Assembly: GCA_003598055.1 (NCBI GenBank)
Contig: QZKI01000131.1
Span: 1-64,000 of the forward strand
Direction of reading: 5' to 3'
From: Candidatus Abyssobacteria bacterium SURF_17
GTDB taxonomy: Bacteria > Abyssobacteria > SURF-5
DNA length: 64,000 nucleotides
Shown: positions 3,510 through 38,698 of the stretch, piece by piece
Layout: each line of letters opens with the position of its first letter
How positions within the stretch are numbered: the stretch's first letter is position 1
Position numbers and translations under genes: made by a program
Notes under the pieces: model-generated
The model's database searches: none
The model's input: the letters and a program-made list of their open reading frames with translations, nothing else
What the model was told of the DNA's origin: nothing

Positions 3510-3526
3510 ATGGCACGGTCAATGCT
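3510..3526 (+). promoter_or_regulatory. Sigma54 (-24/-12) promoter
   Basis: TGGCACGGTCAATGCTT: GG-N10-GC, 31 bp before the ATG at 3557, divergent from a sigma54 activator gene. Confidence 0.8.
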
Positions 3527-3556
3527 TAATACCGAGTTGTTGGAGGCAATGCGATC

Positions 3557-4339: not shown

Positions 4340-5209
4340 ATGAAAACGTACTTTGATTGCATTCCATGCTTCGTGAATCAGACTCTGCAGGCTGTTCGGA
4401 TGGTATCGAACGATGAGCGCATTCATGAACAGGTGCTCCGTCGAGTTCTGGAACATATAAGCGAAATGGACATGCAACAATCGCCGCCTGCGATGGGGCA
4501 AACGATTCATCGGTTGATACGGGAGGCGACAGGCAGCCCGGACCCGTATCGCGAATATAAGAGAAAGTGGAACACATTTTCGTTGCAGCTCTTTCCTGAA
4601 CTCAAGCGGCGAATCGAGGACGCTGCGGACCCGTTCGATACCGCAGTCCGCATGGCTGTTGCGGGGAACATCATAGATTTCGCCGCGAGGCCACGAGTGA
4701 ACGAAGCGATTGTGAGACGGTCAATCAGTGCTGCGCTGAGCACCCCGTGGAAGGACACCGCAGTGGAGACCCTTTACAGAGAAGTCATGCGTGCTCGAAG
4801 AATTCTTTACCTGACCGATAACGCCGGAGAAATCGTCTTTGACCGCCTGCTCATCGAGAGACTTCCCATGGAAAACGTGACCGTTGCGGTGAAGGGCAGC
4901 CCTGTGTGCAACGATGCAACCATGGAAGATGCTGTGGAGGCGGGCCTGAAAGAGCCGGTGAACGTTATCCCGAACGGGTCCGATGCTCCCGGAACGATGC
5001 TCAAAGAATGTTCGGTGCAATTCAAGGGAGAGTTTGCGCGTTCCGATGTGGTAATCGCAAAGGGGCAAGCCAATTACGAAACTCTGAGCAAATGCAACCA
5101 TAACGTGTTCTTCATTCTCATGGCGAAATGCCCGGTAATAGCGAGGGAAATCGGCTGCAAGCAGGAGAACCTTATGGTTTTCCGTGAGTTCTCACAAGGG
5201 ACGATTTAA
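4340..5209 (+). CDS. DUF89 (ARMT1-like / damage-control phosphatase) family protein
   Basis: MKTYFDCIPCFVNQTLQAVR..., YLTDNAGEIVFDRLLIERL, VKGSPVCNDATMEDA, IAKGQANYETL. Confidence 0.9.
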   Translation: MKTYFDCIPCFVNQTLQAVRMVSNDERIHEQVLRRVLEHISEMDMQQSPPAMGQTIHRLIREATGSPDPYREYKRKWNTFSLQLFPELKRRIEDAADPFDTAVRMAVAGNIIDFAARPRVNEAIVRRSISAALSTPWKDTAVETLYREVMRARRILYLTDNAGEIVFDRLLIERLPMENVTVAVKGSPVCNDATMEDAVEAGLKEPVNVIPNGSDAPGTMLKECSVQFKGEFARSDVVIAKGQANYETLSKCNHNVFFILMAKCPVIAREIGCKQENLMVFREFSQGTI

Positions 5210-5233
5210 TGAACGCGAAAGGGGGTGAACGAT

Positions 5234-5614
5234 ATGCCACGCGGTGATGGAACTGGACCTGCGGGGCTCGGCCCGATGACCGGCAGGGGCGCTGGCTACT
5301 GCGCCGGATTCTCAACGCCCGGGTTTGCGAACCCTGTCCCCGGAAGAGGTGGATGGGGAAGGGGGCGAGGACGCGGATACTGGGGCGCCGGCGGTGGTCG
5401 CGGATGGCGCCACTGGTACTATGCTACGGGCGTGCCTGGTTGGGCGCGTGCCGGCTGGGGCTTTGGCCCCCCTGCTCCCTACTGGCCTCCAGTGGGTCCT
5501 TCAATGACAAAGGACCAGGAAGCGGAGCTTCTCAGCGAGCAGGCTAAAGACTTCACCGAAGCGCTCGAAGAAATCAAGAAACGTCTTGAAGAACTGAGCG
5601 CCAAGGAGAAGTGA
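5234..5614 (+). CDS. DUF5320-like Gly-rich protein
   Basis: MPRGDGTGPAGLGPMTGRGAGYCAGF start and C-terminal coiled-coil LSEQAKDFTEALEEIKKRLEEL. Confidence 0.85.
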   Translation: MPRGDGTGPAGLGPMTGRGAGYCAGFSTPGFANPVPGRGGWGRGRGRGYWGAGGGRGWRHWYYATGVPGWARAGWGFGPPAPYWPPVGPSMTKDQEAELLSEQAKDFTEALEEIKKRLEELSAKEK

Positions 5615-5689
5615 GCGGCCGGGACGACTCCTCGGGGAAGGGTTCGGGCCCACCCTTTCCCGCCCGGCTGAGCAAGGCACAGAGCCTTG

Positions 5690-5739
5690 CGAATGAATTG
5701 GAATCTGCAAGGCCGCCTTTGCAGGTTCAAATTCATTCG
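5690..5739. repeat. 21-bp imperfect hairpin in the intergenic region between DUF5320-like genes
   Basis: CGAATGAATTGGAATCTGCAA (5690-5710) / TTGCAGGTTCAAATTCATTCG (5719-5739), few mismatches, 8-nt loop. Confidence 0.8.
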
Positions 5740-5929
5740 AATGCCGATTGATGGATGGCAAGGAGTTAACCAAATCGCTCACATGCTGAAGGGAACGGCC
5801 TTCATTCCATGAGGGCACAGCTGCCAATCGGCAGAGACTTACTGGCGTGAGAGAGTTGCCCCCCTAAGCAACAGGCTCGCGCCTCGATGGGAAGGCCGTT
5901 CCCACCGTTTGAAAAGGAGGGCTTTTGCA

Positions 5930-6163
5930 ATGCCACGAGGAGACGGAACAGGACCGATGGGGCAAGGCCCCGGAACCGGACGCGGCATGGGCCGCGGTCA
6001 AGGCGGCCGACGAGGCCGGATGGGCGGATTCGCCGCTGGACCGGGCGGCAACTGCGTGTGTCTCAAGTGCGGGCACTCAATTCCGCACGAGGCTGGGGTG
6101 CCGTGCCCGCAGATAAGCTGCCCCAACTGCGGAACTCCCATGAGCAGACAACGATATGGGTGA
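5930..6163 (+). CDS. DUF5320-like Gly-rich protein with zinc-ribbon-like C-terminus
   Basis: MPRGDGTGPMGQGPGTGRGMG... CVCLKCGHSIPHEAGVPCPQISCPNCGTPM. Confidence 0.75.
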   Translation: MPRGDGTGPMGQGPGTGRGMGRGQGGRRGRMGGFAAGPGGNCVCLKCGHSIPHEAGVPCPQISCPNCGTPMSRQRYG

Positions 6164-6167
6164 AATA

Positions 6168-6233
6168 GGGACAGAGCCCCTTGGGGATGCGTTTTCACAT
6201 TCGCCTCATGCGGCAGGAAGAGGGCTCTGTCCC
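6168..6233. repeat. REP-like inverted repeat
   Basis: GGGACAGAGCCC (6168-6179) and GGGCTCTGTCCC (6222-6233), perfect 12-bp arms. Confidence 0.8.
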
Positions 6234-6268
6234 TTCTCATGGCCACTGCCGAAAAAGAGGGCATGTAC

Positions 6269-7132
6269 ATGAAAATCGCAGTCGCTAGCGGAAAGGGCGG
6301 CACAGGCAAGACGACCATAGCCACGAACCTGGCCGTTTCATTATCCTCTCAGGGACATCGCGTGCTCTACGCAGATTGCGATGTCGAGGAACCGAACGGC
6401 CACATCTTCCTGAAACCCTGCATCAGACGCGTGGAGCACGTCGGCGTCCCGATTCCGGATGTTGATGCATCGCGCTGCAGCAATTGCGGCGCATGTGGCG
6501 AAATGTGCCAGTTCAGTGCGATCGTGTGCATCAATGACAGGGTGCTGACATTTCCCGAACTCTGTCATGGATGCAACGGCTGCATTCTCGTGTGCCCCGA
6601 AAGCGCCATCCGTGAGGTCCGGCGCGAAATCGGCGTCATCGAATGGGGGAATTCAAATGGAGTGGAGTTTGTTCATGGCACCTTGAGGATAGGCGAGGCC
6701 ATGGCGGCTCCGCTTATTCGCGCGGTCAAGGAACACCTGCCGGCGGATGCAATTTCCATCATCGATGTTCCGCCGGGAACGTCGTGTCCGGTCATAGAGG
6801 CCGTCAGAGACACCGACTTCGTTCTCCTCGTGACCGAGCCGACTCCATTTGGCTTCAATGACCTGCAACTGGCCGTGGAGATGGTTCGCGCACTGAAGCT
6901 CCAATTCGGCATCATCATTAACCGATGCGACGTCGGAAACGACGAAGTCCGAAGGTATTGTATCCGCGAGAACATTCCCCTTTTACTCGAAATCCCCGAT
7001 GACCGCAGAATCGCCGAAGCATACTCGAGAGGTCAGATGGCGGTCGAGGCAGTGCCGGCAATCAGGGAACAATTGCTCGAATTGTGGAACGCAATGGTCT
7101 CTCGACGGAATCACTTTCAAAGGCAACCATGA
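6269..7132 (+). CDS. MinD/Mrp-superfamily P-loop ATPase with inserted 2x[4Fe-4S] ferredoxin domain
   Basis: MKIAVASGKGGTGKTTIATNLA; CSNCGACGEMCQF and CHGCNGCILVCPE. Confidence 0.93.
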   Translation: MKIAVASGKGGTGKTTIATNLAVSLSSQGHRVLYADCDVEEPNGHIFLKPCIRRVEHVGVPIPDVDASRCSNCGACGEMCQFSAIVCINDRVLTFPELCHGCNGCILVCPESAIREVRREIGVIEWGNSNGVEFVHGTLRIGEAMAAPLIRAVKEHLPADAISIIDVPPGTSCPVIEAVRDTDFVLLVTEPTPFGFNDLQLAVEMVRALKLQFGIIINRCDVGNDEVRRYCIRENIPLLLEIPDDRRIAEAYSRGQMAVEAVPAIREQLLELWNAMVSRRNHFQRQP

Positions 7133-9893: not shown

Positions 9894-10903
9894 TGAACTG
9901 GAAGGCCGAGTTCTCACCTGAAATTTCGATGCTCACAAGGATAGGCCGGCGATTGGCACTATGTCTTGTGGCGCTCCTGGCGCTCGCCTATCTGCTGAGC
10001 GGAATCTATGGCGTCGGAGTAAATGAAACCGGCGTGCTCCAACGGTTCGGTCGTATCGTGGATGCCCGAATCCCTCCAGGGCTTCACTACAGGGTTCCGT
10101 GGCCTATGGACAGAGTTGTGAAAGTTCCGACGGGAGAGATCCATCACCTGGTGGCGGGATTCGGAGCGGACCCCGAGCAAGTTGCCGAATTCGAGCGCGG
10201 TTACGGTCCGGTGAACGAATCCGGGTTTGGCTCATTCATCATCCCGTACTGCATCACAGGGGACAAGAACATTATTCACCTTAAGCTGGTCGCGCAGTAT
10301 CGAATCACCGATCCAGAGAAATACGTGTTCGGGTTCAAGGACGCTAAGAGCGTCGCAGTGAGATGCATCCAGTCGGCCATAGTTCGCACCATAAGCAGAA
10401 GCGATGTCGATTCTACTCTCATGACCGGGCGGGTCATACTCCAAAAACAGATACTTGAGGATGTTCAACAGCAACTCAGTGAACTGGGTACCGGCATTGC
10501 GGTGTTCTCGACCGAGATGAAGAATGCGCGTCCGCCTGCCACTGTGGCGCAGGCTTTCAAAGATGTAATCAATGCCCGGGAGGAGTGTCGAACCAAAGTT
10601 CACGATGCTCAAGCGCATAGAAACCGCATAATACCTCAGGGCAAAGCAGAAGCGTCGCGCATGCTGAATGACGCCGAAGCGTATAAGAACCGAAAGATTG
10701 CCCACTCCAGGGGGGAATCGCAAAGATTCGAAATGCTGGCGTGCGAATATCTGAAGGACAAGGAGACTACCGGCCAGCGGTTGTACCTCGAAGCAGCTTC
10801 TGAGATTCTGCCCGTCGTCAACAAGGTTATCCTGGGCACTAACAACGGAGAGAGTATTGCAAATGTGAAGTTTTTCACACAGGAAGATGTGGTGGGCAAA
10901 TGA
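9893..10903 (+). CDS. HflK-like SPFH protein
   Basis: VNETGVLQRFGRIVDARIPPGLHYRVPWPMDRVVKVP; DAQAHRNRIIPQGKAEASRMLNDAEAYKN. Confidence 0.85.
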   Translation: MNWKAEFSPEISMLTRIGRRLALCLVALLALAYLLSGIYGVGVNETGVLQRFGRIVDARIPPGLHYRVPWPMDRVVKVPTGEIHHLVAGFGADPEQVAEFERGYGPVNESGFGSFIIPYCITGDKNIIHLKLVAQYRITDPEKYVFGFKDAKSVAVRCIQSAIVRTISRSDVDSTLMTGRVILQKQILEDVQQQLSELGTGIAVFSTEMKNARPPATVAQAFKDVINAREECRTKVHDAQAHRNRIIPQGKAEASRMLNDAEAYKNRKIAHSRGESQRFEMLACEYLKDKETTGQRLYLEAASEILPVVNKVILGTNNGESIANVKFFTQEDVVGK

Positions 10904-23822: not shown

Positions 23823-24182
23823 ATGAATGCGAAAACTATGAGCGCTCAAGGCCCCACTCTGCTTATCCGTGCCAATTGCATCGGCCGTGGAGATGATGAG
23901 CTCGGTCTCAACCTGATGATGAATTTCATTTTTCATCTCACCAAGGCTGAGACCGTGCCGGAAACAATCATTTTGATGAATTCCGGCGTCACACTGGCGT
24001 CGGAAGGCTCAGAAGTTCTGGACGAACTAAGAGAGCTTGAAAGGAGAGGAACGTCGGTCCTCGTTTGCGGCACCTGCTTGAACTTCTTCAATATCAAGGA
24101 CCAACTCAAGGCGGGGCACGTTTCAAATATGGGAGAAATTGCCACAACGCTTCTTGATGCATCGAAGGTCATTACGGTATAG
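23823..24182 (+). CDS. yedF: YedF/DsrE-like protein (selenium-metabolism-associated family), without TusA-like N-terminal domain
   Basis: LLIRANCIGRGDDELGLNLMMNFIFHL...FLMNSGVTLASEGSEVLDELRELERRGTSVLVCGTCLNFFNIKDQLKAGHVSNMGEI. Confidence 0.8.
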   Translation: MNAKTMSAQGPTLLIRANCIGRGDDELGLNLMMNFIFHLTKAETVPETIILMNSGVTLASEGSEVLDELRELERRGTSVLVCGTCLNFFNIKDQLKAGHVSNMGEIATTLLDASKVITV

Positions 24183-24451
24183 ACGCCCATTCGAAAAGCT
24201 CACTGCTCATCATTGTGGCGGAAACAGATATCCTCGCTTTCGCTGCGAGAGAACAACCAAAAGACGGTAAGGAGAAAGTCTCATAAATACCCGCGCCTTT
24301 CAATGAGGCCCCATCAACTCCCATTCGCGGCTTCACGGGCCTTTCATGGGAACATTGAGATTTCCCGAGAGAATGCTTATAAGCAAAGCCGACACCCTGA
24401 AATTCGAGCACCTGAAATTCGAGCGTTAGTTGCATTCATGCAGGTATCAGC

Positions 24452-24469
24452 GTTGCAGATTTTTGCAAC
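24452..24469. promoter_or_regulatory. Putative enhancer/operator GTTGCA-N6-TGCAAC
   Basis: GTTGCAGATTTTTGCAAC, perfect 6-bp arms, about 110-120 bp upstream of a sigma54 promoter. Confidence 0.6.
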
Positions 24470-24577: not shown

Positions 24578-24595
24578 TTGGCACAATATGTGCAA
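24578..24595 (+). promoter_or_regulatory. Sigma54 (-24/-12) promoter
   Basis: TTGGCACAATATGTGCAA: GG-N10-GC, about 40 bp before the activator ATG at 24636. Confidence 0.75.
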
Positions 24596-24635: not shown

Positions 24636-26000
24636 ATGAGCGAGCGACAAATTCTTATGGAAAACTACGAGATTGACCAGAAAGCCATATCTGAGATCAT
24701 TTTTGATAGCATCAGCGAAGGCGTTTTCACGACCGACCATGGCTGTCGAATCACTTCATTCAATCGCGCAGCGGAGAGGATCTCCGGTTTCAGCCGTAGC
24801 GATGCCATCGGAAAATACTGCTTCGACATTTTCCGTACCGACCTCTGCCAGGCCGGATGCGCACTGAGAAACACGCTTGAAAACGGAAATCCCGTATCGA
24901 ACGTCCGAGTCACCATCATCACGCGCGACGGTCGCAAAGTGCCCATCAGCGTGAGTACCACGCTGCTTCACGACGAATCGAGCCATTGCATCGGCGCAGT
25001 GGAATTTTTTCGCGACCTCTCGGAAATTGAAAGCCTTCAGGACAAGGTCTCGAAGCTGAACCGGTTCGAGAATCTCGTGAGCTGCAACGAGAAGATGCAG
25101 CGGCTCTTCAAACTGCTCCCAGAAATCGCGGAGTCGGAATGCAACGTTCTGATTCAGGGCCCGAGCGGTTCAGGGAAGGAACTGCTGGCACAAGCCCTTC
25201 ATAACCTGAGCCCGCGCAAGCACAATGCCTACATCCGCATCAACTGCGCGGCGCTGCCGGAAACGCTCCTGGAGTCCGAGCTGTTCGGTTACGTGAGAGG
25301 CGCTTTCACGGACGCCAAGCGAGACAAGCCCGGCATGTTCTATCTCGCACAGGGTGGCACGCTGCTCCTCGACGAAATCGGCGACATGCCGGTCGCACTC
25401 CAGGTGAAACTGCTGAGAGTTCTCAATAACGGGGAATACCAGCCCCTTGGCTCCACCAGAATGCTGCAAACCGATGCCCGAATCATCACGTCATCAAATC
25501 AAGACATCAAGCAGATGGTCGAACAGGGTTCTTTCCGTGAAGACCTCTATTATCGAATCAATGTCATCAACATCCAGATTCCGCCGCTATGCGAGCGACT
25601 GGAAGACCTGCCGCTTCTCATCGAGCATTTCGTCCAAAAGTTCCGCGCCAAGCGCAAGCGTGATATTCGCGGAGTCTCGCCGGACGTGCTCAAATCCCTG
25701 AGGAAGTATGATTTCCCCGGCAATGTGAGGGAATTGGAGAACGCGATCGAGCATGCCTTCGTTATTTGCCGCGGAAACATCATCGGAGTGGAACATTTAC
25801 CCGAGAGAATTCTGGATGCAGTTCGAACTGACGAGGAAAGCTCACGCCGAGCTTCGTATGGACAAAGCTCCGAAGAATCAATCATCCGCGAGGCGCTTGC
25901 GAGGAACAGTGGAAATCGAGAGAAAACCGCGGAAGAACTCGACATGCACCGCTCCACCCTGTGGAGGAAAATACAGAGGTACGGTATCACTTCCCCGTGA
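24636..26000 (+). CDS. PAS-domain sigma54-dependent transcriptional activator (Fis-type HTH)
   Basis: PAS, GPSGSGKELLAQALH Walker A, GAFTDA, LLDEIGD, C-terminal HTH NREKTAEELDMHRSTLWRKI. Confidence 0.93.
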   Translation: MSERQILMENYEIDQKAISEIIFDSISEGVFTTDHGCRITSFNRAAERISGFSRSDAIGKYCFDIFRTDLCQAGCALRNTLENGNPVSNVRVTIITRDGRKVPISVSTTLLHDESSHCIGAVEFFRDLSEIESLQDKVSKLNRFENLVSCNEKMQRLFKLLPEIAESECNVLIQGPSGSGKELLAQALHNLSPRKHNAYIRINCAALPETLLESELFGYVRGAFTDAKRDKPGMFYLAQGGTLLLDEIGDMPVALQVKLLRVLNNGEYQPLGSTRMLQTDARIITSSNQDIKQMVEQGSFREDLYYRINVINIQIPPLCERLEDLPLLIEHFVQKFRAKRKRDIRGVSPDVLKSLRKYDFPGNVRELENAIEHAFVICRGNIIGVEHLPERILDAVRTDEESSRRASYGQSSEESIIREALARNSGNREKTAEELDMHRSTLWRKIQRYGITSP

Positions 26001-26145: not shown

Positions 26146-26706
26146 TTATGCTTTTACCGTCGCAGACTTCTCCTCGGCATCCACCTGAATCTCCTGCCAT
26201 GAACCGGGTGACAGATTCATCCTGTCAACAATAAGCACCGCCGGAGGATTCAGGTAATACTGGGCAGGCTTGTCCGGCCCGACGAGCACAACCGGCGCCT
26301 GGAATCGGTAAGCAAACTCCTCAATGGGAACATTGCCGAATGTGATTTCCCGTTCGAGGTACGGGATAACCAGCAACTGGTATTCCCTGTGCATGAGGCA
26401 TGTCCGCAGTTCTTTGGCGTGCCTGCTCTCCTCACACACTTTGAAGCCTACGTCAACGAATTCGCCGAGGCACTTGTCGTAGTATTCCCGCACGCGCCGG
26501 TCAGTCTGGACGAGAATCTTGTCGTCGATCTTGCGAGGCGGGCCCGGCGGCTCGCTGTACTTCTCATAGGGCGAGCGGAGGAAATAAAAGATGTTCAACT
26601 GACACTTGCTTTCCCGGGCAAGCTGGAAAGCAAAGTCGAACGCCCAATCCCCCTTTTCCGAAAAATGGGCGCAGAGCCCGATGTCATTTATGCCGACGGT
26701 TGTCAT
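26146..26706 (-). CDS. Universal stress protein-like
   Basis: MTTVGINDIGLCAHFSEKGDWAFDFAFQLARESKCQLNIFYFL...; start taken at internal Met. Confidence 0.65.
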   Translation of the reverse strand: MTTVGINDIGLCAHFSEKGDWAFDFAFQLARESKCQLNIFYFLRSPYEKYSEPPGPPRKIDDKILVQTDRRVREYYDKCLGEFVDVGFKVCEESRHAKELRTCLMHREYQLLVIPYLEREITFGNVPIEEFAYRFQAPVVLVGPDKPAQYYLNPPAVLIVDRMNLSPGSWQEIQVDAEEKSATVKA

Positions 26707-26741
26707 GATCGTCCTCCTTCCAATATCCGCACCTCTGTTGA

Positions 26742-27713: not shown

Positions 27714-27838
27714 GATTTCCTATCCGAAGCACCTCACCCGCGAAAGGCCACCTCTTGCTGACGCACGATGAGCCTTCCTTCTCTCAAACACGGGCATCGG
27801 TCTCCTTCCCGAAGACTTGTGCTGACACGTCCATCATG

Positions 27839-27855
27839 GGCAAGAACAATGCCAA
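27839..27855 (-). promoter_or_regulatory. Sigma54 (-24/-12) promoter, minus strand
   Basis: Reverse complement TTGGCATTGTTCTTGCC: GG-N10-GC, upstream of the minus-strand gene starting at 27713. Confidence 0.7.
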
Positions 27856-27962
27856 GAGTTTCGGAGTCCTCCCGTTGAAACGGAGACGCTGGAATTTCCG
27901 GTCACTATTCGGAATTCTCTTTCGCTTCTCCGTGAGAGGCCGAGCGATTTCTTCCGGTTGTC

Positions 27963-27986
27963 GTTGCAAAGTCTGTTGCATGCAAC
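27963..27986. promoter_or_regulatory. Putative activator-binding site shared by divergent sigma54 promoters
   Basis: GTTGCAAAGTCTGTTGCATGCAAC, three GTTGCA half-sites, two forming a perfect palindrome GTTGCATGCAAC (27975-27986). Confidence 0.55.
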
Positions 27987-28141
27987 GTGATGTCGCAGCC
28001 ATATGCATCAACAACTCGCGCCCGTGTCTCATGCGCAGGAACCCGGCAAGCTCAACGACCATTGACGCATTGCAGCAAAACACGCGGATTCTCTTCGGAA
28101 TTGCGCCAACAGCGCAGATGAGCCCAAAATCACTTCTCGCC

Positions 28142-28158
28142 GTGGCACAGTTCTTGCC
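28142..28158 (+). promoter_or_regulatory. Sigma54 (-24/-12) promoter upstream of qrcA
   Basis: GTGGCACAGTTCTTGCC: TGGCAC-N5-TTGC, GG-N10-GC. Confidence 0.8.
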
Positions 28159-28285
28159 CAAGATATTCAAGGACAGTGCGACACGCAATGTTCATTGATG
28201 TGCGGAAAAGCACCCGCGCCTGCCGCACCGAACAGCCGGTTGCGTTAATATAGGCCGGATGCGATGACGAGGTCACGATACCACA

Positions 28286-28924
28286 ATGAAAATGAGGGAT
28301 ATCTCAGAAAGCCAAAGACAGTTTGCACTGCTCGGCGGCATATTCGCCGCAGCGCTCGTCGTCTCTCTCATTATGGGATGGATTCTGTTTCCCAGTCTGG
28401 CGTATGCGCGGAAGGCGCAGCCTATCAATTACAACCCGCCCTTGCACGTCGAACAGATCGGAATCACGTGTGACACGTGCCACTTCTTCTATGAGGACGG
28501 CAGTTGGGCGGGAATCCCGACGCTGGAGACGTGCGTGGATTGCCACAGCGATATCATCGGCGCCTCGCCGGAAGAAGAGAAGTTCGTCAACGAATATGTG
28601 AAGAAGAACCGGGAAGTGAAGTGGGCGCTGTATGTGAAACAGCCGGAATGCGTGTCATTCTCGCACTCATCCCATGTCAGAATGGCCAAGATAGCGTGCG
28701 AGACATGCCACGGTCCACAGGGTCATTCCGACCCCAAAGACTACCTTGCCAACAGAATAACAAACTACAGCTACGTTGTGTACGATCCGCGAGTCCCGCT
28801 CAATGCGTTCACCATCATTCGAGACAAAGGAGAGACCGTTTGGGGAACCATGCGGATGGATGAGTGTACCGCCTGTCATCGTTCGCGGGGGACAAGCACT
28901 GCATGCTTTATTTGCCACAAGTAG
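28286..28924 (+). CDS. qrcA: Menaquinone reductase multiheme cytochrome c subunit QrcA
   Basis: N-terminal TM anchor and five CxxCH motifs (CDTCH, CVDCH, CETCH, CTACH, CFICH); followed by QrcBCD-like genes. Confidence 0.85.
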   Translation: MKMRDISESQRQFALLGGIFAAALVVSLIMGWILFPSLAYARKAQPINYNPPLHVEQIGITCDTCHFFYEDGSWAGIPTLETCVDCHSDIIGASPEEEKFVNEYVKKNREVKWALYVKQPECVSFSHSSHVRMAKIACETCHGPQGHSDPKDYLANRITNYSYVVYDPRVPLNAFTIIRDKGETVWGTMRMDECTACHRSRGTSTACFICHK

Positions 28925-28966
28925 GAACGCATGGCCCATGCACGAGGAACCAAGAGGCATAAGAGC

Positions 28967-31357
28967 ATGAACGTTGACCGAAGAACATTTGTGAAAGGAA
29001 TGGCCCTGGCGGGGGGCGGCGCGCTCGGCATAATGCTGTCACCGACGCCGTGGTATCTGATAAGAGACCTCGCCTTCTGGACGCAAAATTGGCCATGGGT
29101 GCCGGCCCCAGCCCCGGGCGAACCTTCATTCGAAAAGTCGATCTGCCGTATCTGCGACGGTGGATGCGGCATCAACGTGCGGAAAGTAGACATGCGCCTC
29201 GTGCGTATAGATGGTGATAAAGAGCATCCCGTGAACCAAGGCTCGATTTGCCCGATGGGCGCTGCGGCGCTTCAGATGCTGTATGGCCCTTCGCGCACGA
29301 AGGTCCCTCTGCGGCGGGTCGGCCCGAGAGAAAACCCGGAGTGGAGGCCTATAACCTGGGCCGAGGCCATCAGAGAGGTCGCCCTCAAAGTCAGACAACT
29401 CCGCGCCGCTGGGAGACCCCACGAGCTCGCCTGCATAACAAACAGCGCACATAGCACGGTCAACCAGTTCTTCGAACGGTTCCTGCACGCGGTGGGCTCA
29501 CGGAACTTCATGCAAATGAACTCTGCACTTGAGGCCCACAGCACCGTTCTCGCTCTGATGCAGGGTGTCGATGAAGGCATAGCATACGATATCGAGAACG
29601 CGCGATATCTCTTGAGCTTCGGATGCAATTTGCTCGAAGGGTGGGGGGCATGCGGTCGGATGTATCATGCACACGCAAATCGGTCCGCACATGAAGGCGG
29701 CAACAGCCTCGAAATCGTCCAGATAGAGCCGAACCTTTCGGTGACGGCAAGCAAGGCCTCCCGCTGGATTCCCATCAAACCGGGAACCGATGCCGCGCTC
29801 GCCCTCAGCATCGCGCACGTGTTGATATCCGACGGGCTCTATGACAAGACATTCGTTGAACGACATACGTTCGGGTTTGAAGATTGGAAGGATTCCGACG
29901 GCAAGCGACGCCGAGGATTCAAATCAGAAGTCCTTGGCCGCTACTCGCCGCGTTCGGTCGAACTCATTACCCAGGTGCCGGCGAACGTCATTGAAGAGGT
30001 CGCTCACGAGTTCGCCGCGAACCAGCCGGCGCTCGCCCTGGGTGGAAGATGCGATGGCAGCTTGTTTGCCGGCATCTACGAGTTGATGGCAATCCACAGC
30101 CTCAACGCGCTTGCGGGAAATCTCTCGCGGCCCGGCGGAATCTTTCTGCAATGCGATGTCCCGCTGAAGTCGCTGTCACCGGTGAAGATGGATGAGCAAG
30201 CCGAGCAGGGCTTCGCGATACCCCGCAGTGACGGAGCTGGGAGCAAAGAGCATCCTCTCGCCCGACACTTGCCACACAACCTCGACGCCGGCAAGGTCGG
30301 CGTACTCCTCATACATGAGGTGAACCCCTCGTACGCTTTGCCCAACCGGAAAGTCGCACGCGCCATTTTCGAGGACATTCCGTACATTGTCAGCTTCTCC
30401 TCTTTCATTGATGAAAGCTCCATGCAGGCGGACCTGATTCTTCCCATCTCGACCCCGCTGGAGCGATGGGATGACCACACCGGCGCCCCCGGGATTCCAT
30501 ACCCAATTTACGGCCTGAGCCATCCACTCGTGAATCCGCTCTATGAAAGCAGGAACGCCGGAGATGTTCTCATAGAGATTGCCCGTGAGCTGGGAGGCAC
30601 AATCGCAGAGTCATTCCCGTGGAACAATACGGTCGAAGCTCTTAGAGAACGAGCTGCGGGATTGTATGAATCCGGAACAGGGGTTATCCACACCGCCGAA
30701 TTCTCGGCGACATACATGAGCCAGACAGCTACCCCGACGGAAGTAAAGTCTTTTCCGACATTTTCTGATTTCTGGAATGCGCTCGTTAAGAACTGTTGTT
30801 GGTCCGACCCACAATGCACGACCGATCAGTTGGAACAGACTCTTAAGACTCCCGGCAAAAAATTTGAATTCTTCAGCCAGCGATTGCAGAAGACCTTCGG
30901 GTACAGCAATGACCTCGAATGTATGCCTCACTATCATGAGCCGCCGCCCAACCCGCAAGGGTTCGACCTGTTGATTATGCCTGAAAACCTGATAACCATG
31001 GCCGATAACGGCCTCGGCACACCGCCCCTCCTCATCAAACAGCTCAGCAATGATGTGCTGTCGGAAAACGACTTGTTTGTTCAGGTTAACCCCATTACTG
31101 CCATGTACCAGGGATTGAAGGATGGCGAAAGCGTGATCCTCGAATCTCCAGCAGGCAAGGTTCGGGTGCGCATACACACGTTCGCCGGAGTGCGGGAGGG
31201 AGTGGTGCTGATCCCACTCGGCTTCGGCCACACGGCATATGACCGGTTTCTGCGCAACAAAGGCGTGAATGCGCTTGAGATATTTGATGCAAAGATGGAT
31301 ACCGTCAGCGGCCTCGCCGTCTGGTGGGCCGTGCCCGGGAAAATATACAAGGTGTGA
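28967..31357 (+). CDS. qrcB: Menaquinone reductase molybdopterin-oxidoreductase-like subunit QrcB
   Basis: Tat signal NVDRRTFVKGMALAGGG; ICRICDGGCGINV cluster; molybdopterin oxidoreductase fold sequence; gene context. Confidence 0.85.
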   Translation: MNVDRRTFVKGMALAGGGALGIMLSPTPWYLIRDLAFWTQNWPWVPAPAPGEPSFEKSICRICDGGCGINVRKVDMRLVRIDGDKEHPVNQGSICPMGAAALQMLYGPSRTKVPLRRVGPRENPEWRPITWAEAIREVALKVRQLRAAGRPHELACITNSAHSTVNQFFERFLHAVGSRNFMQMNSALEAHSTVLALMQGVDEGIAYDIENARYLLSFGCNLLEGWGACGRMYHAHANRSAHEGGNSLEIVQIEPNLSVTASKASRWIPIKPGTDAALALSIAHVLISDGLYDKTFVERHTFGFEDWKDSDGKRRRGFKSEVLGRYSPRSVELITQVPANVIEEVAHEFAANQPALALGGRCDGSLFAGIYELMAIHSLNALAGNLSRPGGIFLQCDVPLKSLSPVKMDEQAEQGFAIPRSDGAGSKEHPLARHLPHNLDAGKVGVLLIHEVNPSYALPNRKVARAIFEDIPYIVSFSSFIDESSMQADLILPISTPLERWDDHTGAPGIPYPIYGLSHPLVNPLYESRNAGDVLIEIARELGGTIAESFPWNNTVEALRERAAGLYESGTGVIHTAEFSATYMSQTATPTEVKSFPTFSDFWNALVKNCCWSDPQCTTDQLEQTLKTPGKKFEFFSQRLQKTFGYSNDLECMPHYHEPPPNPQGFDLLIMPENLITMADNGLGTPPLLIKQLSNDVLSENDLFVQVNPITAMYQGLKDGESVILESPAGKVRVRIHTFAGVREGVVLIPLGFGHTAYDRFLRNKGVNALEIFDAKMDTVSGLAVWWAVPGKIYKV

Positions 31358-31364
31358 GCTAACC

Positions 31365-32114
31365 ATGAAAACTGAGTCCGGCGACCAGAGAATCGCGCGA
31401 TACGGAATGACGATAGATGTGGATAAGTGCACCGGATGCGGCACGTGCGCAGTCGTCTGCCATATGGAGAACAACGTCCCGTTCACGGTCGATGAGAGCG
31501 ACAAATCCCGCAATATGGCTTGGATGCGGATTTACAAGGTGGATAACGGATTGGATTACCCGCACGTGCGCGTTGTCTATTTTCCGCGCCCGTGCATGCA
31601 GTGCGACCATCACACGCCGTGCGTTTCTGTGTGTCCCGCCAGCGCCACCAACTATGACGGTCTCACGGGAATTGTGGATCAGATAAACACACGCTGCATT
31701 GGATGCCGCTATTGCATGGCAGCGTGCCCATACATGGTGCGCTGCTTCAACTGGTGGGACCCGGTCTGGCCGAAAGACATGGAGAAGCATCTGAATCCGG
31801 ACGTCGCGCCGAGAATGCGCGGTGTGGTGGAAAAATGCACGTTCTGTTCGCACCGCTACCTGAAGGCAAAGGACAAGGCTCACAATGAAGGAAGAGACTA
31901 CCTACGGGAAGATGAATATGTGCCCGCTTGCGTCGAGGCGTGTCCCGTAGGAGCGATGCGCTTCGGCGACCTGAACAATCCGGAGCATGCCGTAGCGCAG
32001 CTCATCCAAAGTCCGCGGGCCTTCCGGTTACTGGAGAATCTTCACACTGAACCGAAGGTCTACTACCTCAGTTCTTATGAATGGGTGAGAAAGCTTGCAG
32101 ATAATTTCGCGTGA
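31365..32114 (+). CDS. qrcC: Menaquinone reductase iron-sulfur subunit QrcC
   Basis: Ferredoxin motifs CTGCGTCAVVCH, CMQCDHHTPCVSVCP, CIGCRYCMAACPY, CTFCSHRY. Confidence 0.87.
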   Translation: MKTESGDQRIARYGMTIDVDKCTGCGTCAVVCHMENNVPFTVDESDKSRNMAWMRIYKVDNGLDYPHVRVVYFPRPCMQCDHHTPCVSVCPASATNYDGLTGIVDQINTRCIGCRYCMAACPYMVRCFNWWDPVWPKDMEKHLNPDVAPRMRGVVEKCTFCSHRYLKAKDKAHNEGRDYLREDEYVPACVEACPVGAMRFGDLNNPEHAVAQLIQSPRAFRLLENLHTEPKVYYLSSYEWVRKLADNFA

Positions 32115-32166: not shown

Positions 32167-33393
32167 ATGACTTCAGAGCACACCACACCGAAACTCGAAC
32201 GATGTTCCCGGCAGAAGTTCCTCGTTTGGCTGTCCGTATGGGGATTGCTGCTGGCATGGGGACTGTACGGCGCATTCCTCTGCCTGTTCAAAGGCCTGAA
32301 TCAGACGGGCATGAACAACTATTTCGTCTTCGGACTCTGGATAACCGTTGACCTCGCAATCATAGCGCTGGGGGCCGGCGCCTTTTTCAGCGGGTTCCTC
32401 TTCTATATCCTCAAAGTGGACCATCTCAAAGACTTGATAGGGGCGGCTGTCGTCATAGGGTTTATCTGCTACAGCGGCGCCATTGGAATGCTCACCATTG
32501 ACATCGGGCAGCCGTTGCGCGGCTACTTCAGTTTCTGGCACGCTAACGTGCACTCGATGCTTACGGAAGTGATTTTCTGCATAACCTGTTATCTGTTTGT
32601 TCTTACAATCGAGTTCACGCCGCTGATTCTTGAGAACAAGCGATTGAGCGAATTCCCCCTGTTCAAGTACATCGGCGAAAACCTCCATGGAATCATGGCG
32701 GTGTTCGCGCTGGTGGGGACCTTTCTGTCATTCTTCCATCAAGGGTCGCTCGGCGGAATGTTCGGCGTCTTGTTCGCGCGGCCATTCGCGTATCGTACCG
32801 GCGTCGCCATCTGGCCGTGGACATTTTTCCTCTTCATATTGTCGGCCATTGCCTCGGGTCCGGCACTGACCACGCTCGTGGTCTGGACAACACAGAAGGT
32901 GACCGGAAAACAACTCGTGCGCAGGTCCACGCTGTCAAAACTTGCAAAACTCTCAGCGACGTTATTCTTCGTATATCTGATTTTGAAGGCAGCCGACACC
33001 GTGTATTGGGCAAATGTCACCGCGCCACAGATGGGATTCGCGTTTACTCGGTTCTATCAGGGACCCTACGGAATGGAGCTGTTGTTCCTCGAGCTGTTTG
33101 TCTTCGGGCTGCTGCCGGCCGTGCTCCTGCTGATTCCCAAGGCGCGCGAGCACGATTTTTCGCTCGTCATCGGATGTCTGTTCATCTGCATGGGTATCGT
33201 CCTCAATCGTTTTGTTATGACGGTGCAGACTCTTTCAATACCCGTGCTCCCGTTTGAAAAGTTCGTCGCGTATGCGCCGACCTGGCAGGAATGGGCCGTT
33301 GCAGCGGCGGTTCTCGGATATGGGGTCATCGTGTATTCGCTCAGCTATCGGTACCTTCACCTCTTTCCCCGGGAACATGAGCTGAACGCATAG
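32167..33393 (+). CDS. qrcD: Menaquinone reductase integral membrane subunit QrcD (NrfD/PsrC family)
   Basis: Multi-TM NrfD-like: VDLAIIALGAGAFFSGFLFYIL...FTPLILENKRLSEFPLF. Confidence 0.87.
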   Translation: MTSEHTTPKLERCSRQKFLVWLSVWGLLLAWGLYGAFLCLFKGLNQTGMNNYFVFGLWITVDLAIIALGAGAFFSGFLFYILKVDHLKDLIGAAVVIGFICYSGAIGMLTIDIGQPLRGYFSFWHANVHSMLTEVIFCITCYLFVLTIEFTPLILENKRLSEFPLFKYIGENLHGIMAVFALVGTFLSFFHQGSLGGMFGVLFARPFAYRTGVAIWPWTFFLFILSAIASGPALTTLVVWTTQKVTGKQLVRRSTLSKLAKLSATLFFVYLILKAADTVYWANVTAPQMGFAFTRFYQGPYGMELLFLELFVFGLLPAVLLLIPKAREHDFSLVIGCLFICMGIVLNRFVMTVQTLSIPVLPFEKFVAYAPTWQEWAVAAAVLGYGVIVYSLSYRYLHLFPREHELNA

Positions 33394-33696: not shown

Positions 33697-35016
33697 ATGG
33701 ATGATTTGATGGAAACATTAGGCGCAATCAAAACAACGGTCGCAGTGAATAGCGCGTCTGTCGGCGATACGTGGGATTGGGAGACCGCAGAAAAACGGAT
33801 CGCTGACCTTCTGGAAATCAGGGGACGCTTTGCCGAAGTGCACGAGGTGACCGTAAGCGCAGACGGGGAGAAAATCGCCGCTCCCGTTAAGACGGATGAT
33901 GGAAATTTCACCGCATGCGTGAACGGTGAGGTCTGGCCTGAGATGTTTGAGCTTCTATGGTATCTCAAATTCAGCCCGGACGGAAAGCTGACGGCCTTAA
34001 CGAAAAGCGACGACCAGTGGACCATCGCGGTGGACGGCGAATGCTGGGAGGAGAAGTTCGAGTACATCTGGAACACTCAATTCAGCGCCGACGGTAAGGT
34101 CATCGCGGCTCAGGCGAAACGCGAAATGGATTATCTGATTGTCGTAAACGGAGCCGTCTGGAGCAACATATTCGTTTCAACCCGAGGACTGGCCGTGAGC
34201 AATGATGGAAGGAAGGTTGCAGCGGTGGTTCAGGCGGTCCCGCTCAAAGAGGCGGACATTTTCGGTTTCCTCGAGGGCACATGGACCCTCGCAGTAAATG
34301 ACAAGAAATGGGATAGGAATTTCATCAATGTGTACCGCCCCACCATCAGTCCCGACGGGAGACACGTGGCCGCAGAGGTGCGGTTGGATATCTGTGAGTA
34401 TACGGTTGCAACAGACGGCGAGCCATGGCAACAACGATTCGGCTGTGTCTGGGAACCCCTGTTCAGGGGTAACCAATCGCTGCTTGCTCCCGTCAGAGTC
34501 GACGGAAACTGGACCTTGGCTGAGAACGGACGCCTCATCTGGAAAGGAGCCTATAATCAACTCTGGTACCAGAGATTCAGCCCGGACGGAAGCAGAATAG
34601 CTGCAGTGGTTTCCCCCGCCTTCGGCAAGTGGACCATCGCTGTGGACGATAAACTGTGGAAAAAGACCTACAATGACGCTGTACTGGAGCCGTTCTTTTC
34701 GCCCGATGGACGGCGGGTGGCAGCTATTGTCAAGGATCAGAACAGATGGACGATTGCCGTCGACGGCATACCCTGGACCGAGACGTTCGATATGGTGTGG
34801 AATCCGGTGTTCAGCCCCGACGGAAACGATGTCATCGCGAAGGTCAATAAGAACGGGCGGTTTACGATTGCCCTGAATGGAAGGGCGTGGAGACGCGATT
34901 TCGAGGCGGTGTGGGAGCCCGTGTTCAGCCCAGACGGAACAAAGGTCCTTGTCAAAGCCGTCGAAGATGGAAAGTATTATCGGCGCGTCGTTCCCATACA
35001 GGAACTCATGGGTTGA
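33697..35016 (+). CDS. tmcD: TmcD-like tryptophan-rich beta-propeller protein
   Basis: About ten repeats of WTIAVDGxxWxxxFxxxWxPxFSPDGxxxAA; next to TmcC/TmcB-like genes. Confidence 0.75.
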   Translation: MDDLMETLGAIKTTVAVNSASVGDTWDWETAEKRIADLLEIRGRFAEVHEVTVSADGEKIAAPVKTDDGNFTACVNGEVWPEMFELLWYLKFSPDGKLTALTKSDDQWTIAVDGECWEEKFEYIWNTQFSADGKVIAAQAKREMDYLIVVNGAVWSNIFVSTRGLAVSNDGRKVAAVVQAVPLKEADIFGFLEGTWTLAVNDKKWDRNFINVYRPTISPDGRHVAAEVRLDICEYTVATDGEPWQQRFGCVWEPLFRGNQSLLAPVRVDGNWTLAENGRLIWKGAYNQLWYQRFSPDGSRIAAVVSPAFGKWTIAVDDKLWKKTYNDAVLEPFFSPDGRRVAAIVKDQNRWTIAVDGIPWTETFDMVWNPVFSPDGNDVIAKVNKNGRFTIALNGRAWRRDFEAVWEPVFSPDGTKVLVKAVEDGKYYRRVVPIQELMG

Positions 35017-35038
35017 AAACGCTAGAGGAGAACATGAG

Positions 35039-35686
35039 ATGTACGAATTCGCTCGAGGACCGCTGGTTTGGATAGCGCTGCTCGTTTTTGCGGGCGGATG
35101 CCTGTACCGCCTTGTCTGGATGGTCCGGGCAGCCAAACAAGACAAGGTGGTTATTCCTTACATGAGCTGGAAATACGGCCTGCGCTCGCTCCTCCACTGG
35201 ATTGTTCCGTTCGCAAGCCGCAACATGAGGCTGCATCCCGTGATGACCGTCGTCACGTTCGTCTTTCATATCTGCTTGCTGCTGACCCCGATTTTCCTCC
35301 TTGCCCATAACGTGCTGTGGCAACAGTCATGGGGCGTCAGTTGGTGGAGCCTGCCGTCCCGTTTGGCAGACGTCATGACGGTCGCAGTGATGGCAGGCGG
35401 CATATTCTTCATCGGGAGAAGGCTGAGGTTGCCGGAGGTCCGCAACGTCACGGACTACTCCGACTACCTCCTGATTGCCGTGGTATTAGCCCCGTTCGTG
35501 ACGGGATTCATTGCATCTCAACAATGGTTTGCTTACAGGACAATGGTGATCCTTCACATGTGGACGGGCGCCCTCATGCTCATGGCAATTCCGTTCACAC
35601 GACTGAGCCACATGCTGTATTTCATATTCACCAGAATGTACATGGGCTCTGAATTTGGCGCGGTCCGAAACGCCAAGGACTGGTAA
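35039..35686 (+). CDS. tmcC: TmcC-like membrane cytochrome b (NarI-type)
   Basis: Multi-TM, VTFVFHICLLLTPIFLLAHNVLW, MVILHMWTGALMLMAIPFTRLSHML. Confidence 0.78.
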   Translation: MYEFARGPLVWIALLVFAGGCLYRLVWMVRAAKQDKVVIPYMSWKYGLRSLLHWIVPFASRNMRLHPVMTVVTFVFHICLLLTPIFLLAHNVLWQQSWGVSWWSLPSRLADVMTVAVMAGGIFFIGRRLRLPEVRNVTDYSDYLLIAVVLAPFVTGFIASQQWFAYRTMVILHMWTGALMLMAIPFTRLSHMLYFIFTRMYMGSEFGAVRNAKDW

Positions 35687-35722
35687 TGTCCTCGCGAGCC
35701 CTTGAAATGGAGGGTGTTAAAC

Positions 35723-37117
35723 ATGGTCGAGAAGGCTGGTAGCCAGGCAGCACAGGCTGTCGCAGACCCGGAAATCGAAACGAAGGCTAAGAAAATCCGA
35801 CCGGAACAGATGGTAAAGGACCCGGGGCTGGACGAGACCATAAAAAGGCTAACGCCTGAGCAAATTGAAAGCGTTATCAAAAGGGTATTGACGAAAGAGA
35901 CCGCTGCACGGCTCCGAGTGTACCTGGATACGTGCGTTCACTGCGGACTGTGTGCAGAAGCCTGTCACACGTACCTCTCTCGCGACAGAGACCCGGAATA
36001 TTCACCGGTCGCAAAGGTGAAGAACACCCTGTGGGAAATAGTAAAAAGAAAGGGCAAGGTAGATGGAGAGTTCCTGAAGAACGCATCCAGAATCGCGTTC
36101 ACCGAATGCGCCGTATGCCGTCGTTGCAGCATGTATTGCCCCTTTGGAATCGACATCGCCTATCTCTTAATCGTCGTGCGCAGAATACTGAATCTCTTGT
36201 ACGTAGTGCCCGCCTATCTGCAAGACACGACCAACAGCCACGCCGTCACCATGAACCAGATGTGGGTGCAGGAAGATGAATGGATCGACACGCTGCAGTG
36301 GCAAGAAGAAGAAGCGCGAATGGAAATGGCAAAGGCCAGAATCCCGCTTGACAAAGAGGGGGCCGACATAATGTATTCCGTCATCGCGCCCGAGCCGAAG
36401 ATCCTCGCCCAGCTCATCAATTACATGGCGCAGATCATGACCGTCGCGGGCATGGACTGGACGATGCCCGCGACCGACGGCTGGGACAACAGTAATATGG
36501 CAATGTATTCGGGCGACTTTGAGACGATGGGGCGCGTCGAGCGGCAACACTATGAGACAGCGTTCAGGCTGAAAGTAAAAAAGATCGTTATGGGAGAGTG
36601 CGGCCATGCGTTCCGCGGGGCTGCATACGATGGCCCAAAATGGCTCGTGTGGAAACATCCCCCCGTTCCGCTCATCCATGCCGTCGAGTTCTATTACGAC
36701 TTGCTCAAAACAGGCACGATCAAGATTGCCAAGAAATTCCCCGAACCGACAACGGTCCAAGACCCCTGCAACATAGTCCGGGGCAAGGGGCTGGGCAAGA
36801 AGCTGCGCTACGTCATGAATGCACTGTGCGAGGACTTCAGAGACGTGAACCCGAGACTCGAGCACAACTACTGCTGCATGGCGGGCGGCGGCACCATCAA
36901 TTGCGGTCCGCCGTGGACCAGGTCGAGGATGGTAAGCAACAAGGTAAAGGCGGAACAGTTCAAAGCCACAGGCGCAAAAATCATCGTGACCCCGTGTCAC
37001 AACTGCCACAGCGGTATCGAACAACTTGTTTCGTTCTATAAGCTTGGCATGCATGTGAAATTTATCAGTGAAATCCTTGTCGAATGCATGGAAGTTCCCC
37101 AACACTTGAAGGTGTGA
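35723..37117 (+). CDS. tmcB: TmcB-like Fe-S/CCG-domain protein (HdrD-like)
   Basis: CVHCGLCAEACHTYLSRDRDPEYSPVAK, CAVCRRCSMYCPFGID, C-terminal CCMAGGG and CHNCHSGIEQL. Confidence 0.82.
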   Translation: MVEKAGSQAAQAVADPEIETKAKKIRPEQMVKDPGLDETIKRLTPEQIESVIKRVLTKETAARLRVYLDTCVHCGLCAEACHTYLSRDRDPEYSPVAKVKNTLWEIVKRKGKVDGEFLKNASRIAFTECAVCRRCSMYCPFGIDIAYLLIVVRRILNLLYVVPAYLQDTTNSHAVTMNQMWVQEDEWIDTLQWQEEEARMEMAKARIPLDKEGADIMYSVIAPEPKILAQLINYMAQIMTVAGMDWTMPATDGWDNSNMAMYSGDFETMGRVERQHYETAFRLKVKKIVMGECGHAFRGAAYDGPKWLVWKHPPVPLIHAVEFYYDLLKTGTIKIAKKFPEPTTVQDPCNIVRGKGLGKKLRYVMNALCEDFRDVNPRLEHNYCCMAGGGTINCGPPWTRSRMVSNKVKAEQFKATGAKIIVTPCHNCHSGIEQLVSFYKLGMHVKFISEILVECMEVPQHLKV

Positions 37118-37120
37118 ACT

Positions 37121-38698
37121 ATGGATAAGATGGCTCGCAGTCAAACGGAAACGTTCTTTGCGGCAATGCTGTGTCTTCTTCTCCTCGTGGCTGCCACAGG
37201 GTGTGGGCGGTCGGCCGAAGGAGAAACGTATGGGGAGATAGTGCAGCCGGCAATCGTTGAGGCGTTGGCCCAAAACCAGATCGAAACGCGCGTTGTGATG
37301 GCCCGGCCGGGTGAGTTCAAGAAACTGGAGCGCGCGCCGGTTCTCTTTGACCATCTCAAGCATGTCGATTCACTGAAGAAAGAAGGCTGCGGCACGTGTC
37401 ACACACCCGACGAAAAAGGCAGGGTTACGTATGAATTCTGTGCCGTGAAGCGGGACATGGACAGGCAGGCCCTCATAAATGCCTACCACGAGAAGTGTAT
37501 GAAGTGCCACGACGGACGCGATGAAGCCGCGAAAGAAGCACGCGCGCTCGGCTGCGGCGAGTGCCATGCGGAAAAGGCGGAATACAAGACCGTGGAATGG
37601 TATCAGGCCACATTCGACCATTTCCACCATATCGGTGAGATGGAGAAAGGCTGCGACACATGCCATCATCTCTATGATGAGCAGCAAGCCAAGCTCATAT
37701 ACAAGAAAGGCGAAGAAGTCGCTTGCGGAAAATGTCACAAAGACACGGACGAAGAAAACAAAGAATCGTTGAGAAAAGTGGGCCATACGAGTTGCATTGG
37801 CTGCCACGAGAAAAAATTCCTCGCGGCCGAGACCAAGATGGACCCATACGCATGCGGCAATTGTCATAGACCGGAGGCCAAGCCGCGGCCGCCCGAACCT
37901 AAGGCGCTCGTCGCTCGGTCATACCAGGCGGATCCGACAAATCTGCTTATAAGCTATCCCGGAACGATATTGCCGCCTGTCCCGTTCGACCATGAGAAGC
38001 ACGAGAAACAAGGCGGCAAGGAGGACTGCAACAAGTCATGCCACCATTTCCACGTGCGAACGCTCGTGGCATTCGACCCGCCTTTCCTCAAGACAGGCGA
38101 CGCATGTCGGCAATGCCACGCGCAGTCCAAGGTCTCGATACCGGCTGACGCCATGAGTGCCGACAAGGTCTACCATGATCCGGAGGCGTCACATAGCTGC
38201 ATCGGCTGCCACACCCTGAAAAAGAAAGAGGACGAATCAGCCAAAGGGCCTGTCACCTGCAAGCAATGCCATACGGGAGGAATAGCTCCAAAGCCGGTTC
38301 AAGTGGAACCAACTTCTCCGCCCGACAAGGGACCGGAAACTTATGTGATTGCCCGGCTCACGCGGAAATACATGCCGGTGAAATTCCAGCATGCGATGCA
38401 TACCAAGATGATTGAGGACTGCACCTATTGCCATCATCATGGTCCCGAAAAGGAACAACCCACATGCGCTACGTGTCACGGCGCGCCGCTTGACTTCACC
38501 AAAGTGACGAGACCGCGACTTCTCAGCGCCTACCATCGCATGTGCATGGGTTGCCATAAGAGCATGGGCATCGGGCCGGTCACCTGCACGAAGTGCCACG
38601 AGGAGAGAGAAGGCAGCTACATCCCGGGCCAGCGACTGCAAACGACAAAGGCCATAAACCACGAAGTGGAACTCGCAGACATGGCGAATTCCCTGTGA
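37121..38698 (+). CDS. Large multiheme cytochrome c (HmcA-like, tandem c3 modules)
   Basis: 14 CxxCH motifs plus one CX3CH (CNKSCH); repeated FDHxxH/FQHxxH heme-ligand segments; lipoprotein-like signal LLLLVAATGCGR. Confidence 0.88.
   Translation: MDKMARSQTETFFAAMLCLLLLVAATGCGRSAEGETYGEIVQPAIVEALAQNQIETRVVMARPGEFKKLERAPVLFDHLKHVDSLKKEGCGTCHTPDEKGRVTYEFCAVKRDMDRQALINAYHEKCMKCHDGRDEAAKEARALGCGECHAEKAEYKTVEWYQATFDHFHHIGEMEKGCDTCHHLYDEQQAKLIYKKGEEVACGKCHKDTDEENKESLRKVGHTSCIGCHEKKFLAAETKMDPYACGNCHRPEAKPRPPEPKALVARSYQADPTNLLISYPGTILPPVPFDHEKHEKQGGKEDCNKSCHHFHVRTLVAFDPPFLKTGDACRQCHAQSKVSIPADAMSADKVYHDPEASHSCIGCHTLKKKEDESAKGPVTCKQCHTGGIAPKPVQVEPTSPPDKGPETYVIARLTRKYMPVKFQHAMHTKMIEDCTYCHHHGPEKEQPTCATCHGAPLDFTKVTRPRLLSAYHRMCMGCHKSMGIGPVTCTKCHEEREGSYIPGQRLQTTKAINHEVELADMANSL

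Follow-up and report, generated by a model that had tools for sequence, protein, structure and literature searches.

A probable bidirectional sigma54 control region joins a PAS-type activator to a qrc-tmc operon in Abyssobacteria and to related membrane complexes in other phyla

We describe a divergent intergenic region in a 64,000-nucleotide stretch of DNA from Candidatus Abyssobacteria bacterium SURF_17 (hereafter the window). It very probably acts as a bidirectional sigma54 control region at which the sigma54 activator (EBP) encoded at 24636 would activate both flanking operons as well as its own gene, within an old module that spans phyla. In the mechanism that we propose, the PAS-type EBP would bind the GTTGCA half-sites at 27963-27998 and, via DNA looping, activate two sigma54-RNA polymerase closed complexes, one driving the NifX-DUF1847/USP genes and the other driving qrcABCD-tmcDCB-cytochrome. 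By binding the similar half-sites that precede the sigma54-type promoter of its own gene, it would also be positively autoregulated. The two partners, NifX-DUF1847 and USP, would probably be produced in step with the complex, and could serve as signal-sensing or maturation partners feeding back on the PAS-EBP. The module may be ancient, with the EBP, NifX-DUF1847, USP and half-sites standing before Tmc/Hmc/DsrK-like membrane complexes in other phyla, and a paralogous copy within Abyssobacteria precedes an HdrABC-like operon. The best reading of the circuit is conserved, autoregulated sigma54/EBP control of membrane cytochrome-quinone-Hdr-type complexes.

Results

The divergent control region

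The original prediction, made from the window alone, had placed two outward sigma54 promoters and a GTTGCA site between the NifX-DUF1847/USP operon and qrcABCD, and all three sequences are present (Table 1). Its inventory was sound for the two promoters and the enhancer but incomplete, having missed a sigma54-type promoter of the activator gene and a probable, weak fourth half-site (TCGCAG, 27993-27998). Both promoters have a TGGCAC-N5-TTGC context with GG and GC 10 bases apart, and they point outward with the GTTGCA array between them. Compared with TGGCACNNNNNTTGCW, the NifX-side promoter has two mismatches and the qrc-side promoter one, GG-N10-GC being retained in each. Since the window contains 14 sigma54-type sites with up to two mismatches, a single genome would not prove the two promoters.

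Half-sites of the GTTGCA/TGCAAC type occur 47 times across the 64 kb, and the central GTTGCA element, GTTGCAAAGTCTGTTGCATGCAAC, has a single copy in the 4.64-Mb genome (assembly G000, 4,642,259 bases in 144 contigs; genome-wide counts here and below were obtained by pattern searches). TGACGCA, found in each of the three genera compared below at 77-81 bp upstream of the qrc -24 element, is possibly the site of a second regulator.

Table 1. Predicted features of the control region, the activator gene and the flanking operons (positions in the window)
Feature	Position	Strand	Basis
Half-site cluster before activator gene: GTTGCA 24429-24434 and inverted repeat GTTGCAGATTTTTGCAAC 24452-24469	24429..24469	.	
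Sigma54-type promoter of activator gene, TGGCACAATATGTGCA	24579..24594	+	GG-N10-GC, 1 mismatch
EBP: PAS, sigma54-activator AAA+ (GAFTDA loop), Fis-type HTH	24636..26000	+	Pfam
Universal-stress-protein-fold gene (USP)	26146..26718	-	Predicted structure, neighbourhood
NifX-like domain and DUF1847, invariant Cys residues	26742..27713	-	Pfam, profile match, alignments
Sigma54 promoter, NifX-DUF1847/USP operon	27839..27854	-	TGGCATTGTTCTTGCC; kept in 3 genera
Shared enhancer GTTGCA-N6-GTTGCA-TGCAAC-N6-TCGCAG	27963..27998	.	Conserved array; candidate EBP site
TGACGCA, second conserved element	28063..28069	.	3 genera
Sigma54 promoter, qrc-tmc operon	28143..28158	+	TGGCACAGTTCTTGCC; kept in 3 genera
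qrcA, multihaem cytochrome c	28286..28924	+	NCBIfam NF041781, 208.8 bits, cut-off 180
qrcB, molybdopterin-protein-like subunit	28931..31357	+	NCBIfam NF041783, 460.2 bits, cut-off 440
qrcC, Fe-S subunit (start approximate)	31365..32114	+	NCBIfam NF041782, 399.7 bits, cut-off 400
qrcD, NrfD-like membrane subunit	32167..33393	+	NCBIfam NF041784, 599.4 bits, cut-off 570
tmcD	33697..35016	+	NCBIfam NF045725, 547.7 bits, cut-off 440
tmcC, membrane cytochrome b-like anchor (start approximate)	35030..35686	+	NCBIfam NF045723, 312 bits, cut-off 240
tmcB-like, HdrD-like CCG Fe-S protein	35702..37117	+	NCBIfam NF045724, 713.4 bits, cut-off 735
Multihaem c-type cytochrome, probable last operon gene	37121..38698	+	Many CxxCH motifs

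The operons on either side

On the plus strand, the four QrcABCD subunits follow one another in order, A, B and D scoring above their cut-offs and QrcC marginally below. TmcD and TmcC are likewise above the cut-off and TmcB below; a large multihaem cytochrome then comes, and no gene of the TmcA class (acidic tetrahaem) was seen in the window's operon. The gene order through the multihaem cytochrome is the same in G002, and the G001 contig stops within qrcD. One operon probably spans qrcABCD-tmcDCB-multihaem cytochrome, and the NCBIfam assignments and gene order suggest that it unites the periplasmic cytochrome-to-menaquinone complex with a Tmc-type complex. The original prediction of qrcABCD as the target was thus right in putting qrc behind the promoter but too narrow: the target is probably qrc together with tmc, and the circuit is not specific to qrc. 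According to the published description of the genome, sat and aprAB are reported, but no dsrAB (PMC6121073).

On the minus strand, the NifX-DUF1847 protein gave a profile match to NifB/NifX-type structures, and alignments of its relatives contain invariant cysteines. Its predicted structure has a pTM of 0.49, with the DUF1847 part at low confidence. Selenocysteine at in-frame TGA codons of DUF1847 relatives was considered and rejected, these TGAs lying outside the conserved part. The USP-fold protein had no significant match by Pfam alone; its predicted structure (pLDDT 76.8) has universal stress proteins as the top PDB matches (E 2.8e-5).

The activator gene

The start of the activator is more likely ATG 24636 or 24657 than GTG 24627. 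Its AAA+ domain (PF00158, 220.9 bits) is a complete sigma54-activator domain, flanked by an N-terminal PAS sensory domain and a C-terminal HTH_8 domain, and the GAFTDA loop is a variant listed as compatible with activation (PMC4641369). Orthologs 83% identical have the same gene neighbours in G001 and G002, and rpoN is found in all three abyssubacterial genomes (PF04552 above cut-off). The window's genome has two rpoN-type genes, on contigs C113 and C12 (L152 and L155), and each relative has one. Directly upstream of the EBP gene, at 23823-24182, lies a gene for a YedF-like selenium-metabolism/DsrE-family protein.

The original prediction had matched the half-sites of 27963-27986 to those before this activator, and the same GTTGCA/TGCAAC cluster is indeed there. 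With six half-sites in 240 bp from 24429, it is the densest such stretch of the window, and GTTGCAN6TGCAAC at 24452-24469 is the sole exact match in the genome. Comparable clusters occur at the same place before the EBP gene in G001 and G002, where TGGCACAATCCGTGCA and TGGCATGCTATGTGCT, respectively, are the counterparts of the activator's promoter. The cluster is a probable autoregulatory enhancer.

The tie between Qrc and this activator, also put forward in the original prediction, gains support from the common half-sites, from adjacency in three genera, and from the co-occurrence of orthologous activator and cluster in other phyla (see below). The 24636 EBP therefore probably reads the 27963-27998 array, a pairing of protein and site that rests on co-occurrence.

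Conservation within Abyssobacteria

Searches at family, order and phylum level yielded just three genomes, the window's own (G000), G001 and G002, which represent three genera and which all keep the order EBP, USP/NifX-DUF1847, divergent qrcABCD. The original prediction had staked itself on conservation upstream of qrcA, and the two promoters and the enhancer do recur in both other genera. When the divergent gap is aligned, few islands stand out from a remainder that is largely unalignable: the promoter on the minus strand, the GTTGCA array, TGACGCA and the promoter on the plus strand. MAFFT misaligned the first of these in G001, where it is found at 10202-10217.

Across the three genomes (about 15 Mb), there are 12 occurrences of the strict promoter form TGGCAYNGTTNTTGCC, and reversed-pattern controls gave none. 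Half of these occurrences are the two outward qrc/NifX-DUF1847 promoters of each genome, three lie in the paralogous module described below, and one precedes a flgB-like flagellar operon, flagellar operons being a classical sigma54 target. GTTGCRTGCAAC stands at the array position in all three genomes and once only elsewhere. The array pattern GTTRCANNNNNNGTTRCAYGCAAC, without mismatches, is limited to the window array, the G002 qrc region and the paralogous G000 module, and with up to two mismatches to the qrc and paralogous modules plus one background match each in G000 and G001; since the pattern was written from these sites, these counts speak for its rarity and are not an independent discovery. 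The G001 UAS is degenerate, its own array needing three mismatches. From the UAS to the qrc-side promoter the distance is 168, 170 and 147 bp in the three genomes, and to the NifX-side promoter 136, 228 and 139 bp, the value of 228 belonging to G001. Most UAS-promoter spacings in the qrc and paralogous modules are near whole 10.5-bp helical turns.

A paralogous module and second qrc copies

On G000 contig C21 and G002 contig C145, a second NifX-DUF1847 gene is divergent from an HdrB/HdrA/HdrC-like operon. Judged by ORF sizes, this operon had been taken for an RND efflux system, which was rejected on the Pfam and NCBIfam assignments to HdrA/B/C-like families. The module has both outward promoters and the array, with the UAS 169/170 bp from the hdr-side promoter and 136/137 bp from the NifX-side promoter; its EBP, 79% identical to the 24636 EBP, is encoded about 14 kb from the second NifX-DUF1847 gene.

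Each abyssubacterial genome also carries a second qrcABCD without adjacent tmc genes (L099, L100 and L101; G000 C55, G001 C7 and G002 C86), and no conserved sigma54 promoter was found at these three copies. Downstream of them, in all three genomes, lies a different EBP (39-42% identical). Such a different EBP is found near qrcD in G026 (L104) as well.

Homologous loci in other phyla

A search with the NifX-DUF1847 alignment against 85,462 species genomes returned 15 loci outside Abyssobacteria, all in MAGs, from phyla that include Zixibacteria, Electryonea, FCB, LCP-89, Gemmatimonadota and Acidobacteriota. In every one of them a USP relative adjoins NifX-DUF1847 and a TmcB/HmcF/DsrK-like gene lies upstream on the opposite strand. 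TmcC- and QrcC-like genes, and usually a QrcD-like gene, follow it in 14 loci, the fifteenth contig ending there. An EBP ortholog (56-62% identity) is adjacent in 14 of the 14 contigs that are long enough; L122 ends within the USP gene. The operon of L118 is DsrK/HmcF-, TmcC/HmcE-, HmcB- and HmcC-like by NCBIfam, all below equivalog cut-offs. Also at L118, positions 4460-6430 encode a fusion of an NrfD-like membrane protein with a class III cytochrome c region at the C-terminus.

The half-site from the window was then applied to these loci. In 15 of 15, the GTYGCA/TGCRAC cluster that is densest across the whole locus lies in the divergent gap, and in most gaps it stands between near-consensus sigma54 promoters; its consensus is GTYGCA-N3-GTTGCAACA-N4-GTYGCA with more TGCRAC half-sites. 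Using promoter and UAS patterns that were set after viewing the loci, and shuffles that were two-base-block and not strictly dinucleotide, we found a sigma54 pattern on the NifX side no more than 80 bp from the start in 12 loci (0.01 expected), a complex-side pattern in 13 (0.14 expected) and the UAS core in 13 (0.01 expected). In three of the 15 loci (L114, L124 and L127), the NifX-side promoter deviates from GG-N10-GC at -24 or -12. In a maximum-likelihood tree, all module EBPs fall into a single clade (support 100/100), inside which the five abyssubacterial copies group together; orp-like EBPs, whose members in this tree did not include DVU2106 itself, fall outside.

For qrcA we analysed 82 upstream regions (five of them shorter than 600 bp) from 395 genomes of the phylum of G025, presumably Desulfobacterota, and none had a sigma54-type site at one mismatch or fewer. 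Together with the second qrc copies lacking the promoter, this indicates that sigma54 control follows the EBP/NifX-DUF1847 module and not qrc itself.

Discussion

The sites, their conservation, the gene order and the orthology are established by the sequences. Chance matches of the three motifs in intergenic DNA would be conceivable from the window alone, where single sites are as common as noted above, but position, orientation and spacing are kept in three genera, in the paralogous locus and in other phyla, which in practice refutes this reading and leaves it a negligible probability. From these data we infer the use of sigma54, binding by the 24636 EBP, activation and not repression, the signal, and what NifX-DUF1847 and USP do.

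A different EBP could be the main reader of the array at genuine sigma54 promoters, either the paralog from the HdrABC-like module (79% identical) or the orp-like EBP encoded at 1716-3104, with cross-talk between paralogous circuits. In its favour, the UAS of the paralogous module is laid out and spaced in much the same way, and the EBP of that module has the HRxTLWRK recognition helix in common with the 24636 EBP. However, the site and its neighbouring EBP are both kept in G001, where the paralogous EBP has no match; the other phyla have a single orthologous EBP beside the same half-sites; and the half-sites cluster before the 24636 gene as well. We regard this alternative as unlikely. Less probable still, and in our view quite improbable, is that the array is a repressor or nucleoid-protein site and that both operons are driven mainly by sigma70-type promoters, the GG-N10-GC elements being secondary. 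Qrc is described as constitutively abundant in Desulfobacteraceae (PMC11887813), and the 82 qrcA upstream regions of another phylum, without sigma54-type sites, would also fit such a view. Against it stand the strict sigma54 elements that flank the array at near-fixed spacing in three genera and also in the paralogous module, their recurrence in other phyla, and the EBP gene adjacent wherever the contig is long enough.

Activation of both operons by the 24636 EBP thus remains the preferred reading. Because the same switch, activator and partner genes stand before related complexes in several phyla, the circuit is apparently a genuine, hitherto undescribed control of anaerobic respiration, a new regulon of established mechanism with unusually wide conservation, from Abyssobacteria to MAGs of Zixibacteria, Electryonea, LCP-89, Gemmatimonadota and Acidobacteriota. 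The control of Qrc, Tmc, Hmc and related complexes has been poorly described so far, and the circuit puts names to the sites and the activator and adds two partner proteins that are unstudied. It also connects DUF1847, a family of unknown function that our literature search did not find in any paper, with respiratory regulation. More speculatively, NifX-DUF1847, USP and the PAS-EBP might form a dedicated sensing and control unit, in some six or more phyla, that tunes HdrD/CCG-type membrane complexes to redox or cofactor state, with NifX-DUF1847 as the EBP's metal/Fe-S-cluster sensor or maturation gauge. We hold this only tentatively; if true, the unit would in effect regulate cytochrome-quinone-disulfide respiration in general, beyond the classical sulfate reducers.

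The original prediction had called such a circuit not known to be described, and our literature search likewise found no report of one. The D. vulgaris sigma54 regulome paper mentions neither qrc nor DUF1847, a recent multi-phylum survey of sigma54 regulons does not mention qrc or tmc, and a recent Qrc paper does not mention regulation at all. As in the QrcABCD and Tmc complexes of sulfate reducers (PMC13059093, PMC6303296, PMC4215793), the subunits here belong to the NCBIfam families, most of them above curated cut-offs; unlike there, qrc and tmc lie in one probable sigma54 operon, in a lineage outside Desulfobacterota. The DVU3142-ohcBAC system of Desulfovibrionales (PMC4641369) is similar in that a local EBP is predicted to control a membrane cytochrome/quinone complex via sigma54, but its target is Ohc and not Qrc-Tmc, and there it is the EBP gene that diverges from the genes of the complex. 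In the text consulted, that paper describes no NifX-DUF1847/USP partner; it shows conservation within Desulfovibrionales.

A further likeness is to the divergent orp1/orp2 operons of D. vulgaris, which depend on sigma54, the EBP DVU2106 and IHF (PMC3897727; Fievet 2011). There, as is proposed here, one local one-component EBP switches two divergent sigma54 operons jointly via palindromes between the promoters, and DVU2106 also has a GAFTDA loop (PMC4641369). The targets differ, being orp genes (ORP/Mrp) there and Qrc-Tmc and NifX-DUF1847/USP here. The DVU2106 gene is transcribed from a sigma70 promoter and negatively autoregulated, whereas the EBP gene here has its own sigma54-type promoter. 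IHF sites are needed by orp1/orp2, whereas no IHF consensus site was found here in the divergent region between qrc and NifX-DUF1847 (27714-28285), and the 24636 EBP falls outside the orp-like clade in the tree without DVU2106. NifX/ORP-type proteins also belong to the orp regulon, another point of likeness. The window has a cluster resembling orp at 1716-4329, in which a second PAS-EBP (1716-3104, of the orp-like clade) is divergent from NifX-type genes followed by Mrp/MinD-type ATPases, with a sigma54-type site, TGGCACGGTCAATGCT, at 3511-3526 that is kept in G001 and G002.
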